Source: a virus. From it: 29,000 bases of DNA. Below the pieces are notes generated by a model, which ran no database searches, was not told the origin of the DNA, and saw nothing but the letters and a program-made list of their open reading frames with translations. Location: the IMG/VR virus record IMGVR_UViG_3300042905_001408, positions 1-29,000 of that record; one strand, given 5' to 3'. Positions 15,741 through 26,160 of this stretch are shown here, piece by piece. The position numbers and the translations under genes were made by a program. Numbering within the stretch: position 1 is the stretch's first letter; each line of letters starts with the position of its first letter.

Positions 15741-15836
15741 ATAGCGTAGAAATACGCTATTCTATAATACATTGAAGAACAAAGCCCTATACTTTTGATG
15801 TATAGAACAGGCATTCAGTGTATTATAGAATAGCGT
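15741..15836 (+). repeat. long inverted repeat with competing hairpin before tRNA-Gln
   Basis: An 18-base arm at 15754-15771 (ACGCTATTCTATAATACA) pairs perfectly with 15819-15836; one wobble pair and four more pairs extend it to 23 bp. The loop holds CTATAC/GTATAG. A separate perfect 8-bp hairpin with a GAAA loop (15741-15760) uses part of the left arm, so the two cannot form together. The right arm ends seven bases before tRNA-Gln. Confidence 0.7.
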
Positions 15837-15842
15837 TTCAGT

Positions 15843-15917
15843 TGGAGGTTCGCCAAGTGGTAAGGCCCCGGATTTTGATTCCGGTATGCATAGGTTCGAA
15901 TCCTATACCTCCTGCCA
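15843..15917 (+). tRNA. tRNA-Gln (TTG)
   Basis: Cloverleaf with anticodon loop ATTTTGATT region giving TTG, T arm AGGTTCGAATCCT, and encoded GCCA end. Positions 1 and 72 are an unpaired T-T, in line with the weak first pair that glutaminyl-tRNA synthetase prefers. First tRNA of the array. Confidence 0.93.
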
Positions 15918-16003: not shown

Positions 16004-16064
16004 AGGATACTAACAGCAAATTTTATACATTAGACTTTTAATCTAAACCGTAAAAATGTATCCT
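16004..16064 (+). ncRNA. ACAGCAA-element RNA, copy in the tRNA array
   Basis: Closing stem AGGATAC (16004-16010) pairs with GTATCCT (16058-16064). Two bases later comes ACAGCAA (16013-16019), then a perfect 5-bp hairpin TTAGA-CTTTTAA-TCTAA that looks like a lysine anticodon arm (TTT). Only 11 bases follow, so there is no T arm, and the 3' end is GTTA, not CCA. It shares its plan with three elements upstream of the Ro60-like gene (21563, 21728, 21932), and its 3' flank ATCCTGTTATTTT is identical to that at 21712. Either a new RNA family or a degenerate tRNA-Lys. Confidence 0.5.
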
Positions 16065-16076
16065 GTTATTTTCAAT

Positions 16077-19218: not shown

Positions 19219-19244
19219 GCCCGGGTGGTGAAATAGGTAGACAC
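19219..19244 (+). pseudogene. truncated tRNA-Leu, 5' part only
   Basis: GCCCGGGTGGTGAAATAGGT and the next six bases match the acceptor and D arm of tRNA-Leu (compare 25336). The sequence then turns into the leader of an HNH endonuclease gene, and no 3' half exists. Promoter and boxA are still in place. Confidence 0.75.
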
Positions 19245-19271
19245 TATAATAATTACTTTCTTTGTGTTTAG

Positions 19272-19295: not shown

Positions 19296-19754
19296 ATGAT
19301 TGTTTTGACTGAATACATCAAACGGGACAGAAGTGTGCGTAGGGCACATTTGGATTTGTCTGAGTCATGCCTTGAAAGAGGCGGAAATTCTACTAATCAT
19401 AAAGGTGTTCTCGCACAATTTTTAAATACAGATATTCCTTCTGGTAGAATTTTGCTTTGCCATGCTTGTCATAATGGAAAATGCTCAAACCCCAAACATT
19501 TGTATTGGGGAACGGACCGTGATAATCTTGAAGATGCTAAAGAAAATGGGACTCATAAAAGTCCTTGGGATAACCTTGTTGAAAAACATGGTTATGAAAA
19601 AGCATGTCAGATAAACAGTATCAAAATGCAAAATAACACTAATGGCTCAGGAAATGCAGGTAAATCTAAATCAGAGGAACACAAGAAAAATATTTCACTA
19701 AACCGCAAGGGTGGTAAACCTAAAGGTTGGCGAAAAAACAAATCTAGTGTATAA
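19296..19754 (+). CDS. HNH homing endonuclease inserted at a tRNA-Leu
   Basis: A 152-aa HNH protein. The core LLCHACHNGKCSNPKHLYWG (about 53-72) and TDRDNLEDAKENGTH match the short HNH_3 type that often inhabits introns and intergenic sites. The C-terminal part (GSGNAGKSKSEEHKKNISL) is a NUMOD3-like DNA-binding motif, with a basic tail. AAGGAG precedes ATG 19296. It begins 51 bases after the break in a tRNA-Leu and seems to have arrived with, or caused, loss of that tRNA. Confidence 0.87.
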   Translation: MIVLTEYIKRDRSVRRAHLDLSESCLERGGNSTNHKGVLAQFLNTDIPSGRILLCHACHNGKCSNPKHLYWGTDRDNLEDAKENGTHKSPWDNLVEKHGYEKACQINSIKMQNNTNGSGNAGKSKSEEHKKNISLNRKGGKPKGWRKNKSSV

Positions 19755-19765
19755 TAAAGTTTGTT

Positions 19766-19850
19766 GCGAGTGTGACGTAAGTGGTAGCCGTAGGAGACTT
19801 AAAATCTCCCGCCGTTAGGCGTGCCGGTTCGAGTCCGGCCACTCGCACCA
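19766..19850 (+). tRNA. tRNA-Leu (TAA)
   Basis: Class II tRNA with long variable arm (CGCCGTTAGGCG). Perfect acceptor GCGAGTG/CACTCGC, anticodon arm GGAGA-CTTAAAA-TCTCC (TAA), T arm CCGGTTCGAGTCCGG, encoded ACCA. Confidence 0.94.
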
Positions 19851-19970
19851 TATTGAAGCACATTGTAAGCCATTGCCGATGATCAAGGCAGCGTAGGGTG
19901 GCAGAAAGTAGATAATCGGCCGATACAGCTACTGAACCGCCTAGATAGTATAGTGTGTTTCAATATGGTG
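19846..19970 (+). ncRNA. structured RNA with long terminal stem, first copy
   Basis: CACCATATTGAAGCACA (19846-19862) pairs with TGTGTTTCAATATGGTG (19954-19970), a 17-bp stem with one wobble. The left arm begins in the CCA end of tRNA-Leu, and six bases after the right arm the next tRNA starts. About 90 bases inside have no open frame and contain GGTGGCAGAAAGT and an AGTAG/CTACT pair. A relative with the same stem lies at 24525-24638. Confidence 0.6.
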
Positions 19971-19975
19971 ATTTA

Positions 19976-20052
19976 GGGCCTATAGCACAATTGGTTAGTG
20001 CAAACGACTCATAATCGTTAGGTTACAGGTTCGAGTCCTGTTGGGCCCACCA
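19976..20052 (+). tRNA. tRNA with CAT anticodon (Met or lysidine-type Ile)
   Basis: Acceptor GGGCCTA/TGGGCCC, anticodon arm AACGA-CTCATAA-TCGTT (CAT), T arm ACAGGTTCGAGTCCTGT, encoded ACCA. The CGACTCATAATCG arm resembles minor tRNA-Ile2, which TilS converts with lysidine, but elongator Met is not excluded. Confidence 0.92.
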
Positions 20053-21493: not shown

Positions 21494-21496
21494 CTT

Positions 21497-21505
21497 TACC
21501 CAAAA
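21497..21505 (+). promoter_or_regulatory. TACCCAAAA motif upstream of promoter
   Basis: Third copy of TACCCAAAA, four bases after the phosphoesterase stop and four bases before the -35 box at 21510. Confidence 0.4.
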
Positions 21506-21509
21506 TTAC

Positions 21510-21538
21510 TTGTCAACAAGTGACTTTGGTGACATAAT
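21510..21538 (+). promoter_or_regulatory. sigma70-like promoter for RNA/Ro60 locus
   Basis: TTGTCA (21510-21515), 17 bases, CATAAT (21533-21538). The predicted start near 21545 is about 18 bases before the first structured element. Confidence 0.6.
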
Positions 21539-21562
21539 AACATCATTGAGTTAGAGATTATA

Positions 21563-21716
21563 AGGATCGGTACAGCAACATTTACTTTATAGTGAATGGT
21601 CTGGGCATAGTATGGTACATGCTGGAGGGACAACCCGTTGAAGGTGTGTATTGAAATACTCCGGACGAACTCAGAGTGATGGCCTGAGTATAATAAAAGC
21701 AGTCAACAACGATCCT
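21563..21716 (+). ncRNA. ACAGCAA-element RNA A, upstream of Ro60-like gene
   Basis: Closing stem AGGATCG (21563-21569) pairs with CGATCCT (21710-21716). After two bases comes ACAGCAA (21572-21578), then at once an 8-bp hairpin (CATTTACT/AGTGAATG, 21579-21598). Further hairpins include GCAT...ATGC, GTAT/ATAC and CTCAG...CTGAG. The 154-nt element has no convincing open frame. ACAG can alternatively pair with CTGT at the 3' end of the stem. Confidence 0.55.
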
Positions 21717-21727
21717 GTTATTTTGTT

Positions 21728-21920
21728 AGGATGATGACAGCAATCTAAAACAATACTGCCTTGTTTTAGGGAAACCTAAACAGCCTGTTGGGGTTAGCCA
21801 ACTTTGTGTCTAGTCAAGATACTAGGATCGGTCATGTACGATACATGATAGGCTTGTGGTACAAACTCCCTTAGTGGTAGGGGGCAAGCAGAAATATAAA
21901 ATACCCGTATCGGTCATCCT
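21728..21920 (+). ncRNA. ACAGCAA-element RNA B, tandem second copy
   Basis: Closing stem AGGATGA (21728-21734) pairs with TCATCCT (21914-21920). Two bases, ACAGCAA (21737-21743), then a 9-bp hairpin CTAAAACAA/TTGTTTTAG. Inside are further perfect hairpins: CTAGT/ACTAG, TCATGTA/TACATGA and GCTTG...CAAGC around CTCCCT...AGGGGG. It begins 11 bases behind element A. Confidence 0.55.
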
Positions 21921-21931
21921 GTTAGAATTAG

Positions 21932-21987
21932 TGAATGCTAACAGCAACTTTTTATTCAAACTTGAAAATTGAAATAAAACGCATTCA
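21932..21987 (+). ncRNA. ACAGCAA-element D in the leader of the Ro60-like gene
   Basis: TGAATGC (21932-21938) pairs with GCATTCA (21981-21987). Two bases, ACAGCAA (21941-21947), then a U-rich run, a TTCAA/TTGAA hairpin and an A-rich run. The ribosome binding site GAAAGGA follows directly, so the element could also act as a translational control site. Confidence 0.5.
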
Positions 21988-22001
21988 GAAAGGAAAATGA
22001 A

Positions 22002-23417
22002 ATGAACGCATTTGTAAACGCAGTAGCGAACCAAGAAGCCCGTACCCAAAATGGTATGAAGGCTCGTAAGTCTAGTGCTAACGCACTGGTTGATCTGTTC
22101 TATAACATCGGTGCAAGCCGTGGTAAGAACATTGTACCTGCTTTTACCTCTGCCTATGTCCAAGATAAGGACTTGGCATTGCGTATCGCATTGTGGGCCC
22201 GCGATGCCCGTAGTGGAGCAGGCGAACGTCAATTGTTCCGTGATATCTTGACTCATTTGGAAAAGACTGATCCCGATGCGGCAGTCCGTCTGTTGAACAA
22301 GGTACCTGAACTTGGTCGTTTTGATGACTTGTTTGTTTTCAAGTCAAAGGACATGAAGGCTAAGGCTTACACTCTGTTGGGTGATAACCTTCGTGTTAAG
22401 AATGGTCTTGCGGCTAAGTGGACTCCTCGTAAGGGCCCTGTTGCCCGCGAAATCCGTGAGTTCTTCGGCATGAGTCCTAAGAACTACCGTAAGACTTTGG
22501 TCTCTATGACCAATGTCGTTGAATCACAAATGTGTGCCAACGACTGGGACAACATCAACTTCAGCCATGTTCCCTCACAGGCTGCACGAATCTACAAGAA
22601 GGCGTTCAACCGTCATTCTGTTAAGTTCGCAGAGTATGTACAGAAGTTGGTTAGTGGAGATAAGACTGTCAAGGTTAACGCCGGCGCGATCTATCCTCAT
22701 GATGTCCTGAAGGGTGTGATCAATGCATATGGTCGTGCGTCTTATGACAAGACCGAGTTGGATCACATTGTTGCGCAATGGGATGCATTGCCTAACTATG
22801 TTGGTGATGCTAACATCATGCCGCTTGTTGACGTTAGTGGTTCTATGACTTGCCCTGCAGGTAAGAACACTAACGTTCGTTGCTTGGATGTTTCAGTCTC
22901 ATTGGGATTGTACTTGGCTGATAAGAACAAGGGTGCGTTCCACGGAACCTTCTTGACTTTCAGCGAAAAGCCTGAATTGATGACCCTAAAGGGTAACATC
23001 GTTCAAAAGGCTGATCAAATGATCAAGTCAACTTGGGGCATGAGTACCAATCTACATGCGGCTTTTGACAAGATCCTTAGCACCGCAGTTAAGAATTCTG
23101 TTCCTAACAGCGATATGCCAAAGATGTTGTTGATCCTTAGCGATATGCAGTTCAACCAATGCGTCCGTCATGATGACTCAGCAATGGAAATGATTGAACG
23201 CAAGTATCGTGACGCAGGCTACGAAATGCCAGCAGTGGTTTTTTGGAACTTGAACAGTAGCGACAACGTTCCTGTCAAGTCAGACAAGAGTGGTGCGGCA
23301 CTTGTGTCAGGGTTCAGCCCAAGCATCATGACTAGTCTGTTGTCAGCAGACCCGCTGGAATTCACTCCAGAAGGTATGATGATGAAGACCATCATGGCAG
23401 ATCGTTACGATTGCTAA
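22002..23417 (+). CDS. Ro60-like TROVE/vWA RNA-binding protein (DUF2828 type)
   Basis: A 471-aa protein with the Ro60 plan: an N-terminal alpha-helical repeat region (about 20-250) followed by a von Willebrand A domain (about 270-470). The MIDAS metal site is complete: D277-VSGS281, T349 in MSTNLH and D381 in LSDMQ. The helical part has features I associate with DUF2828: ARSGAGERQLFRDIL, ELGRFDDLFVF, NYRKTL and then VPSQAARIYKKAF, RHSVKFAEYV, AGAIYPHDV. Ro60 is a ring that binds misfolded RNA ends and Y RNAs and, in bacteria, works with nucleases in RNA decay. The about 500 bases ahead of it hold structured RNA elements, and a strong terminator follows. Its base composition is more GC-rich and its codon use more biased than neighbours, suggesting high expression. 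Binding of the neighbouring RNAs is inference. Confidence 0.87.
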   Translation: MNAFVNAVANQEARTQNGMKARKSSANALVDLFYNIGASRGKNIVPAFTSAYVQDKDLALRIALWARDARSGAGERQLFRDILTHLEKTDPDAAVRLLNKVPELGRFDDLFVFKSKDMKAKAYTLLGDNLRVKNGLAAKWTPRKGPVAREIREFFGMSPKNYRKTLVSMTNVVESQMCANDWDNINFSHVPSQAARIYKKAFNRHSVKFAEYVQKLVSGDKTVKVNAGAIYPHDVLKGVINAYGRASYDKTELDHIVAQWDALPNYVGDANIMPLVDVSGSMTCPAGKNTNVRCLDVSVSLGLYLADKNKGAFHGTFLTFSEKPELMTLKGNIVQKADQMIKSTWGMSTNLHAAFDKILSTAVKNSVPNSDMPKMLLILSDMQFNQCVRHDDSAMEMIERKYRDAGYEMPAVVFWNLNSSDNVPVKSDKSGAALVSGFSPSIMTSLLSADPLEFTPEGMMMKTIMADRYDC

Positions 23418-24083: not shown

Positions 24084-24086
24084 ATA
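24079..24086 (+). promoter_or_regulatory. T4-like late promoter box
   Basis: TATAAATA overlapping the oxygenase stop. No gene follows for more than 360 bases, only structured RNA, so its product may be non-coding. Confidence 0.5.
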
Positions 24087-24089
24087 AAA

Positions 24090-24366
24090 TTGCAACTAGG
24101 TAAGTGTATAACGACACTTTAAACAAGATTGTGGACGCACATGATTCGGCCTAGTTCAACGATCACTCGGCTTACACTTTGCCGTAATCAAAAGTGGGTA
24201 GGCAGTTACCATATCTGCCGGGTACGCACGAACTTGACCTTAAGGCCCGCGATGTATGGGCGACTTAAAAATATCGTGGGGCAGAACTTGACTGTCCATA
24301 TGGAGACAAGTAGGACGGAACCTTACACCCATGTCGGGGCTTGGTAGTGCGAGTAGCCGACATTCT
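24090..24366 (+). ncRNA. candidate late structured RNA, about 270 nt
   Basis: No believable gene lies between the oxygenase and tRNA-Lys. AACTAGG (24094-24100) pairs with CCTAGTT (24150-24156) around an AAGTGT/ACACTT hairpin. Then follow CGGC...GCCG, GGCAG...CTGCC, TTAAGGCCC...GGGC and ACTTG...CAAGT with TCCATATGGA at its tip. The last hairpin, TGTCGG (24332-24337) with CCGACA (24357-24362), is followed by TTCTTCTT and could end the transcript. A 72-codon open frame here lacks a start site and has an unlikely composition. Confidence 0.45.
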
Positions 24367-24368
24367 TC

Positions 24369-24397
24369 TTGACAATAATTCCTACTTAGTATATAAT
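24369..24397 (+). promoter_or_regulatory. perfect consensus promoter for tRNA-Lys unit
   Basis: TTGACA (24369-24374), exactly 17 bases, TATAAT (24392-24397): full sigma70 consensus. Expected start near 24404, followed by boxA at 24424. Confidence 0.85.
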
Positions 24398-24423
24398 AAG
24401 TGCATACGCTGAGAAATCGGCAA

Positions 24424-24435
24424 TGCTCTTTAACA
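24424..24435 (+). promoter_or_regulatory. boxA antitermination site
   Basis: TGCTCTTTAACA, identical to the boxA in E. coli rRNA operons, about 20 bases after the predicted start and 18 bases before tRNA-Lys. Confidence 0.65.
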
Positions 24436-24452
24436 GTTTATTGGTTTTATTT

Positions 24453-24529
24453 GGGACGTTAGCTCAGTTGGTAGCAGCACTCGGCTTTTAACCGATAGGT
24501 CATTGGTTCGAACCCAATACGTCCTACCA
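24453..24529 (+). tRNA. tRNA-Lys (TTT)
   Basis: Acceptor GGGACGT/ACGTCCT with one end mismatch, anticodon loop CTTTTAA (TTT), T arm TTGGTTCGAACCCAA, encoded ACCA. The 3' CCA is also part of the stem of the RNA that follows. Confidence 0.93.
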
Positions 24530-24638
24530 TATTAAAACACATTCAAGGCAAAGTACAAGCCTGGCAGAAGGTGCAGCCTTGCCCCGTATGGAGCAATGGT
24601 GGACGGTGCTACTCCGTCGAGTGTGTTTTAATATGGTA
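24525..24638 (+). ncRNA. structured RNA with long terminal stem, second copy
   Basis: TACCATATTAAAACACA (24525-24541) pairs with TGTGTTTTAATATGGTA (24622-24638). The left arm starts in the CCA of tRNA-Lys, and tRNA-Glu follows five bases after the right arm. Inside are CAAGGC/GCCTTG around CTGGCAGAAGGT, and GACGG-TGCTACT-CCGTC, a 5-bp stem with a 7-base loop like a tRNA T arm. Relative of 19846-19970. Confidence 0.6.
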
Positions 24639-24643
24639 TCTTT

Positions 24644-24719
24644 GCTCGGTTCGTCTATCGGTTTAGGACGCTAGCCTTTCACGCTGGAAAGACGGGTTCG
24701 ATTCCCGTACCGAGTACCA
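24644..24719 (+). tRNA. tRNA-Glu (TTC)
   Basis: Acceptor GCTCGGT/ACCGAGT with a wobble at the first pair, anticodon loop CTTTCAC (TTC), T arm ACGGGTTCGATTCCCGT, encoded ACCA. Confidence 0.93.
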
Positions 24720-24931: not shown

Positions 24932-25016
24932 GGAGATGAAGCATCAATGGTGATGCAGTGGACTGTAAATCCGCCGCCTTATGGCACGACTGGTTCGATC
25001 CCAGTAATCTCCACCA
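24932..25016 (+). tRNA. tRNA-Tyr (GTA)
   Basis: Class II tRNA with long variable arm (CGCCGCCTTATGGCACG region). Anticodon loop CTGTAAA (GTA), T arm ACTGGTTCGATCCCAGT, encoded ACCA. One mismatch at the seventh acceptor pair. A queuosine-type anticodon. Confidence 0.92.
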
Positions 25017-26084: not shown

Positions 26085-26160
26085 TGCGGCCGAGGGAGAC
26101 AGTAACCCGCCAGTCTCATAAGCTGGAGATACCTGGTGCGACTCCAGGGGTTCGCAACCA
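26085..26160 (+). tRNA. tRNA with CAT anticodon, third, unusual T loop
   Basis: Anticodon arm CCAGT-CTCATAA-GCTGG (CAT). T arm CCTGG-TGCGACT-CCAGG has G where the near-universal second T (psi55) should be. The acceptor TGCGGCC/GTTCGCA starts with a T-A pair and has one mismatch; encoded ACCA. Initiator-like or degenerating; the D arm is also odd. Confidence 0.8.

Follow-up and report, generated by a model that had tools for sequence, protein, structure and literature searches.

Stem-framed small RNAs in the tRNA arrays of environmental phages and their resemblance to stable RNAs of phage T5

The DNA analyzed here (IMG/VR record IMGVR_UViG_3300042905_001408, positions 1 to 29,000; hereafter the window, 29,000 nucleotides) carries several tRNA genes; E1 to E3 below, their neighboring tRNAs and the Ro60-like gene lie on the + strand. 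Folding, arm pairing and tRNA calls identified a stem-framed RNA element (E1, 19846-19970) at the junction between tRNA-Leu(TAA) (19766-19850) and tRNA-Met(CAT) (19976-20052). A sequence-only reading of the window had proposed an RNA with a 17-bp terminal stem at this place. The element is real, and its stem extends over 22 positions when GU pairs are allowed; its folding z-score is -6.45, and none of the shuffled sequences was equally stable. The further claims of that reading on the layout also held. By pairing, the left arm (19846-19867) starts at the final base of the tRNA-Leu acceptor and takes in the CCA (19848-19850), the right arm (19949-19970) pairs with this upstream CCA through its UGG, and five bases separate the end of the right arm from the start of tRNA-Met at 19976. 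Upstream of the intact tRNA-Leu we observed a tRNA-Leu-like 5' part (19219-19250) followed by an open reading frame without a Pfam match (19296-19754), an arrangement suggestive of a tRNA gene that has been interrupted or duplicated.

The near-repeat of the stem that had been noted at 24525 was confirmed by folding as a second element of the same anatomy (E2, 24525-24638, z = -6.12), located between tRNA-Lys(TTT) (24453-24529) and tRNA-Glu(TTC) (24644-24719). We searched for similarity between the interiors of E1 and E2, and none was detectable. The interior of E2 is predicted by folding to be multibranched, with one D-arm-like and one T-arm-like hairpin. A third element had been overlooked (E3, 15754-15836): it was found by pairing, its 23-bp stem shares the ACAUU/AGUGU core and the U-G wobble, and tRNA-Gln(TTG) (15843-15917) follows 6 nt downstream. 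E1, E2 and E3 are the only stems of at least 20 bp in the window, compared with a mean of 0.03 and a maximum of 1 in 100 dinucleotide shuffles of the window. The noncoding stretch upstream of tRNA-Lys (24084-24445) is weakly structured (z = -1.84) and shares 93% identity over 355 nt with two related contigs (L004 and L005). Further downstream, Rfam finds two tRNA-like genes (24932-25013 and 26086-26156), both of which are missed by ARAGORN.

A first set of relatives comprised 80 contigs linked via the Ro60-like gene of the window; the contigs used here are fragments and partly redundant. Stems of at least 16 bp were present in 57 of 259 unique inter-tRNA gaps (31-319 nt) from this set; after shuffling, 6 of the 259 gaps had one. 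The majority of tRNA gaps in these arrays lack such a stem. A scan with the shared-core pattern matched at least 120 contigs, and the 80 loci listed from it yielded 83 unique elements. The left arm lies exactly on a tRNA CCA in 59 of these; several of the remainder come after sequences that end in CCA but are not recognized as tRNAs by ARAGORN. Such uncalled, structured and CCA-terminated sequences were seen upstream of elements in L104, L132, L113, L116, L112/L117 and L141 and are comparable to RNAI and RNA3 of phage T5. When no sequence pattern was used, stems of at least 17 bp in related viral loci numbered 304 near tRNAs versus 46 elsewhere, corresponding to 4.7 versus 0.42 per 10 kb, or an approximately eleven-fold higher density. 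In the pattern-selected set, the element was on the strand of the neighboring tRNAs without exception (642:0). The core pattern was absent from about 85,000 scanned bacterial and archaeal genomes, and therefore the class looks like a feature of lytic phages. No element matched an Rfam 15 family at the gathering score, and Rfam searches at gathering and relaxed thresholds returned only tRNAs, one tmRNA in another phage and chance matches. We conclude that E1 is one member of an extensive class of small RNAs that phages carry within their tRNA arrays and that have a long terminal stem as a frame, a conclusion that is well supported. Members are laid out with a stem of about 20 bp that runs from the end of one tRNA, often to the start of the next.

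To describe the stem, we counted positions from the first C of the CCA in 119 CCA-anchored elements that had been found by pairing alone. Positions 2-17 are paired in at least 95% of them, apart from the two positions with a character of their own: only 48% of the elements are paired at position 8 (A-C in 43, C-A in 7, U-U in 5), and 73% have a U-G wobble at position 16. Since pairing was required for finding these elements, its amount in this set is no evidence, but where the mismatch and the wobble fall was not selected. Three positions are left free by the core pattern. In the pattern set, free pairs 1 and 2, which adjoin the mismatch, were paired in 83 of 83 and 82 of 83 elements, through several types of pair (71.8 and 47.1 of 83 on average in shuffles), and the third free position, which is stem position 8, was paired in 30 of 83, again with A-C as the commonest mismatch. 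Homologous interiors carried by different stems showed 25 double pair-keeping, 26 single pair-keeping and 5 pair-breaking changes. Some of the covariation counts are drawn from sets selected by pairing. Compensatory changes, which the sequence-only reading had suggested looking for among relatives, were also found between E2 and its three homologs (L034, L201 and L085), with 7 pairs changed on both sides across the 4 sequences. The helix is about 17 bp long, with the left arm anchored on the upstream CCA and the UGG at the far end as its pairing partner, and the frame is fixed: a first run of about 7 bp leads to a recurrent 1x1 mismatch at position 8, and a second of about 9 bp contains the U-G wobble at position 16. 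Selection acting on an RNA helix predicts covariation, constant orientation and a placed mismatch and wobble, and the observed pattern fits this prediction, bearing out, at the level of RNA, the earlier claim that selection has kept the stem.

The interiors are diverse and are exchanged between stems and tRNA junctions. A set of 296 interiors fell into 185 similarity clusters, 136 of which were singletons, so that a conserved cargo is shown for a minority only. Members of one interior cluster occurred at different tRNA junctions and within different outer stems, for example in L098/L100/L127, L094/L133/L154 and L141/L159. The E2 homolog in L201 keeps both the D-arm-like and the T-arm-like hairpin, and its canonical T-arm abuts the right arm. 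Overall, the interiors are structured and at least partly conserved, without a single fold. Anticodon-loop mimicry in the long-stem interiors was rejected for this class (1 observed versus 1.75 expected). Two further framed RNAs were observed in the related loci. One is a separate family of about 150 nt (GGUAUCGUGU...GGACGC...) with its own framing stem, located between tRNA-Glu and various tRNAs; its structure is kept in twelve sequences (L033, L044, L064, L073, L089, L096, L101, L109, L124, L127, L148 and L150), and double changes were seen at 31 of the 36 consensus pairs. The other is longer, at about 250 nt, and has GGTTACCAA and GGTCACGCTGGA-like boxes that are conserved (L087:12209-12457, L096:1362-1608 and L111:5641-5899).

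Among isolate phages, nucleotide searches with E1, E2 or a consensus element gave chance matches only, and members were found via folding of tRNA gaps. Synechococcus phage BUCT-ZZ01 carries a member directly after tRNA-Lys (ATAATTATCTTAAAGCACATTGA; L203:4635-4729), whose stem shows C-A mispairing at position 9 of the arm together with the U-G wobble. Additional members precede tRNA-His in Vibrio phage Hades (L208:13940-14125) and Enterobacter phage fGh-Ecl01. According to Rfam, the tRNA array of BUCT-ZZ01 also contains a permuted tmRNA (L203:10780-11076).

In phage T5 (AY543070), RNAIII, RNAIV and RNA2H, which carry the annotation "stable RNAs with unknown functions", each sit within a terminal stem that reaches beyond the annotated ends. 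Like members of the class, they are situated in a tRNA array and enclosed by a terminal stem, here of 18-22 bp. RNAIII also resembles E1 and E2 in that its left arm starts in the CCA of RNAI, the RNA before it, while the right arm reaches into tRNA-His. Irregularities comparable to those of the environmental stems are a U-G wobble in RNAIII, an A-C mismatch in RNAIV and a bulge and a mismatch in RNA2H. The annotated 5' end of RNAIII coincides with stem position 8, and its 3' end abuts the annotated tRNA-His; the 5' end of RNAIV is the A of the A-C mismatch, and that of RNA2H lies beside the bulge. Taken from the annotated ends, which are those of the record and for which no mapping method is stated there, the 3' overhangs amount to 2 nt for RNAIII, 1 nt for RNAIV and 3 nt for RNA2H (one of the 3 being bulged). 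These ends look like staggered cuts that leave 3' overhangs. The T5 RNAs differ from the environmental class in sequence, and the AAACACAUU/AGUGUGUUU core is absent. At the RNAIII junction of nine T5-like phages, four interiors were found (79, 120-122, 135 and 149 nt including arms), while the stem was retained with its inner half changed on both sides. These swaps imply that cargo is exchanged within a kept frame in culturable relatives also, and interior exchange with a covarying stem is common to the environmental class and the T5-like phages.

We consider that RNAIII, RNAIV and RNA2H fit the same class. We found no paper on these T5 RNAs; literature coverage was incomplete, so any claim of novelty for the class is provisional. 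The assignment would bring hundreds of uncharacterized environmental phage RNAs and the orphan stable RNAs of T5, a classic laboratory phage, under one architecture and one concrete processing hypothesis. Further, the role of the non-tRNA RNAs in T4- and T5-like tRNA clusters becomes directly testable in Escherichia coli.

The release of the RNA from between its flanking tRNAs, as proposed in the sequence-only reading, is suggested by the placement of the elements and by the T5 stable RNAs, which have the same anatomy and annotated ends inside the stem. We propose, with a probability of about 0.6, that the RNA is transcribed together with its neighboring tRNAs, cut out within the stem by RNase III-type cleavage and kept as a stable, structured RNA. 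A double-strand endonuclease would cut across the stem near position 8 and leave 3' overhangs. The upstream tRNA would thereby be detached with a few extra 3' bases after its CCA, to be trimmed by an exonuclease, and the downstream tRNA with a short leader, to be removed by RNase P. The freed RNA would measure about 60-220 nt and retain a closing stem of 9-11 bp, with the interior as its putative functional cargo. If E1 is cut as the T5 RNAs appear to be, with its 5' end at stem position 8 and a 2-nt 3' overhang, the mature RNA would span 19855-19963; the corresponding prediction for E2 is 24534-24631. Cleavage near position 8 would account for the ends of the T5 RNAs, for the mismatch that recurs there and for where the elements lie. 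The simplest candidate for the enzyme is the host RNase III. Several observations count against this mechanism. A search of 20 large contigs gave no RNase III of the phages' own, so that a host enzyme has to be assumed. Position 8 is paired in the E1 (G-C) and E2 (A-U) of the window itself, both of which have the wobble, and in length the stem falls short of a classical RNase III substrate unless stacked on the acceptor stem. The CCA-UGG pairing may allow such stacking, which would offer the enzyme about two helical turns. More tentatively, the elements could form a modular system in which a standard stem serves as a shared handle for the release and stability of tradeable, trans-acting structured RNAs in tRNA arrays, directed against the host or its defenses, with T5 RNAIII, RNAIV and RNA2H as the first known members; we regard this broader view as possible, though somewhat doubtful.

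The stem could instead act in cis only, as a cleavage signal that separates the tRNAs of a polycistronic transcript, with the interior as a disposable loop. Such a spacer would account for stem and placement being constant while interiors are highly diverse (185 clusters from 296). It would not account for the compensatory changes that preserve the structure of some interiors, for the recurrence of some interiors across phages and junctions, for the annotation of the T5 versions as stable RNAs or for the lack of the stem in most gaps of the same arrays, and we consider it unlikely. That the elements are degenerate tRNAs with a replaced and extended acceptor stem appears quite improbable. Canonical T-arms, present in 12 of 161 elements (0.15 expected), and the two tRNA-like hairpins of L201 would agree with such an origin, yet most interiors have no T-arm; at least three central-loop branches are predicted in only 28 of 161, and 64 of 161 are predicted to be unbranched.

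A DNA-level explanation would treat the arms as terminal inverted repeats by which elements insert, or cassettes are exchanged, beside tRNA genes. It draws on the presence of one interior at different tRNA junctions with different outer stems and on the interiors swapped at one T5 junction. However, elements are always oriented as the tRNAs are (642:0), and compensatory changes, together with a mismatch at a fixed place and a G-U wobble, suit RNA pairing rather than the ends of a DNA repeat; moreover, reverse transcriptase was found in 0 of 20 contigs and the pattern is absent from bacterial genomes. We therefore hold mobile DNA or its remnants to be highly improbable as the explanation. Recombination scars alone, which the sequence-only reading had named as the competing interpretation of the repeats, are insufficient, though interiors are clearly exchanged, and recombination may bring about this exchange in addition. 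A miniature transposon with terminal inverted repeats, expected to insert in either orientation, was rejected on the same 642:0 count, and a retron noncoding RNA on the missing cognate reverse transcriptase (0 of 20 contigs).

The gene at 22.0 kb (22002-23417; phrog_850; DUF2828/DUF7788) encodes a genuine Ro60-like phage protein, and the sequence-only reading had put E1 forward, by its likeness to Y RNAs, as a possible partner. The long terminal stem, the distance of only 2 kb to the gene and the canonical T-arms mentioned above speak for this pairing, the last because bacterial YrlA RNAs have a tRNA-like module of which these T-arms are reminiscent. Against it, of roughly 30 large contigs with the element only 5 encode phrog_850 (one of the five having been reached via that gene), a TROVE domain is present in 0 of 20 element contigs and a Ro60-like gene nowhere in the stretch of T5 read, and no Rfam match was obtained; as contigs are possibly incomplete, a missing Ro60 gene weakens the partnership rather than kills it. 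The class thus shares the terminal stem, and in a few members a tRNA-like arm, with bacterial Y RNAs and YrlA, but is not consistently accompanied by a Ro60 gene. Known Y RNAs and YrlA have a bulged Ro60 site, and the class has a fixed 1x1 mismatch in its place. Tested as a partner, the gene found no support, and we give the Y RNA reading the least credence. The interpretation offered by the sequence-only reading is, as a whole, partly supported. A more likely partner for the Ro60-like protein than the hairpins is the noncoding leader of its own gene (21494-22001, about 500 nt), which is similar in 39 of 40 relatives and contains ACAGCAA/CTGTT modules. In L040, at most 540 nt upstream of the Ro60-like gene, an ACAGCAA module encloses a sequence resembling a circularly permuted tRNA, in the order T-arm, acceptor hairpin, D-arm.

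RNA C and RNA D of phage T4 (species 1 and 2) are, like the members of the class, small stable RNAs of a tRNA cluster; they lack a terminal stem of about 20 bp and were rejected as direct relatives. GOLLD and ROOL are likewise phage RNAs encoded near tRNA islands (PMC12286853). Unlike the class, which has no Rfam match, they are 600-800 nt long with elaborate conserved cores.

A second recurrent RNA element with covarying stems, GGATNN-NN-ACAGCAA ... NNATCCTGTT, was observed in the related loci, with 169 modules compared with 2-7 for control motifs. Among the short ACAGCAA-NNATCCTGTT modules, 29 of 69 contain a mimic of an anticodon stem-loop (0.38 expected). The loop is mostly CUUUUAA (Lys), and Cys-, Tyr-, Asn-, Thr-, Ile- and Ser-like loops also occur. 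These modules could possibly be decoys for anticodon nucleases. The copy in the window (16005-16067) reads TTAGA-CTTTTAA-TCTAA.
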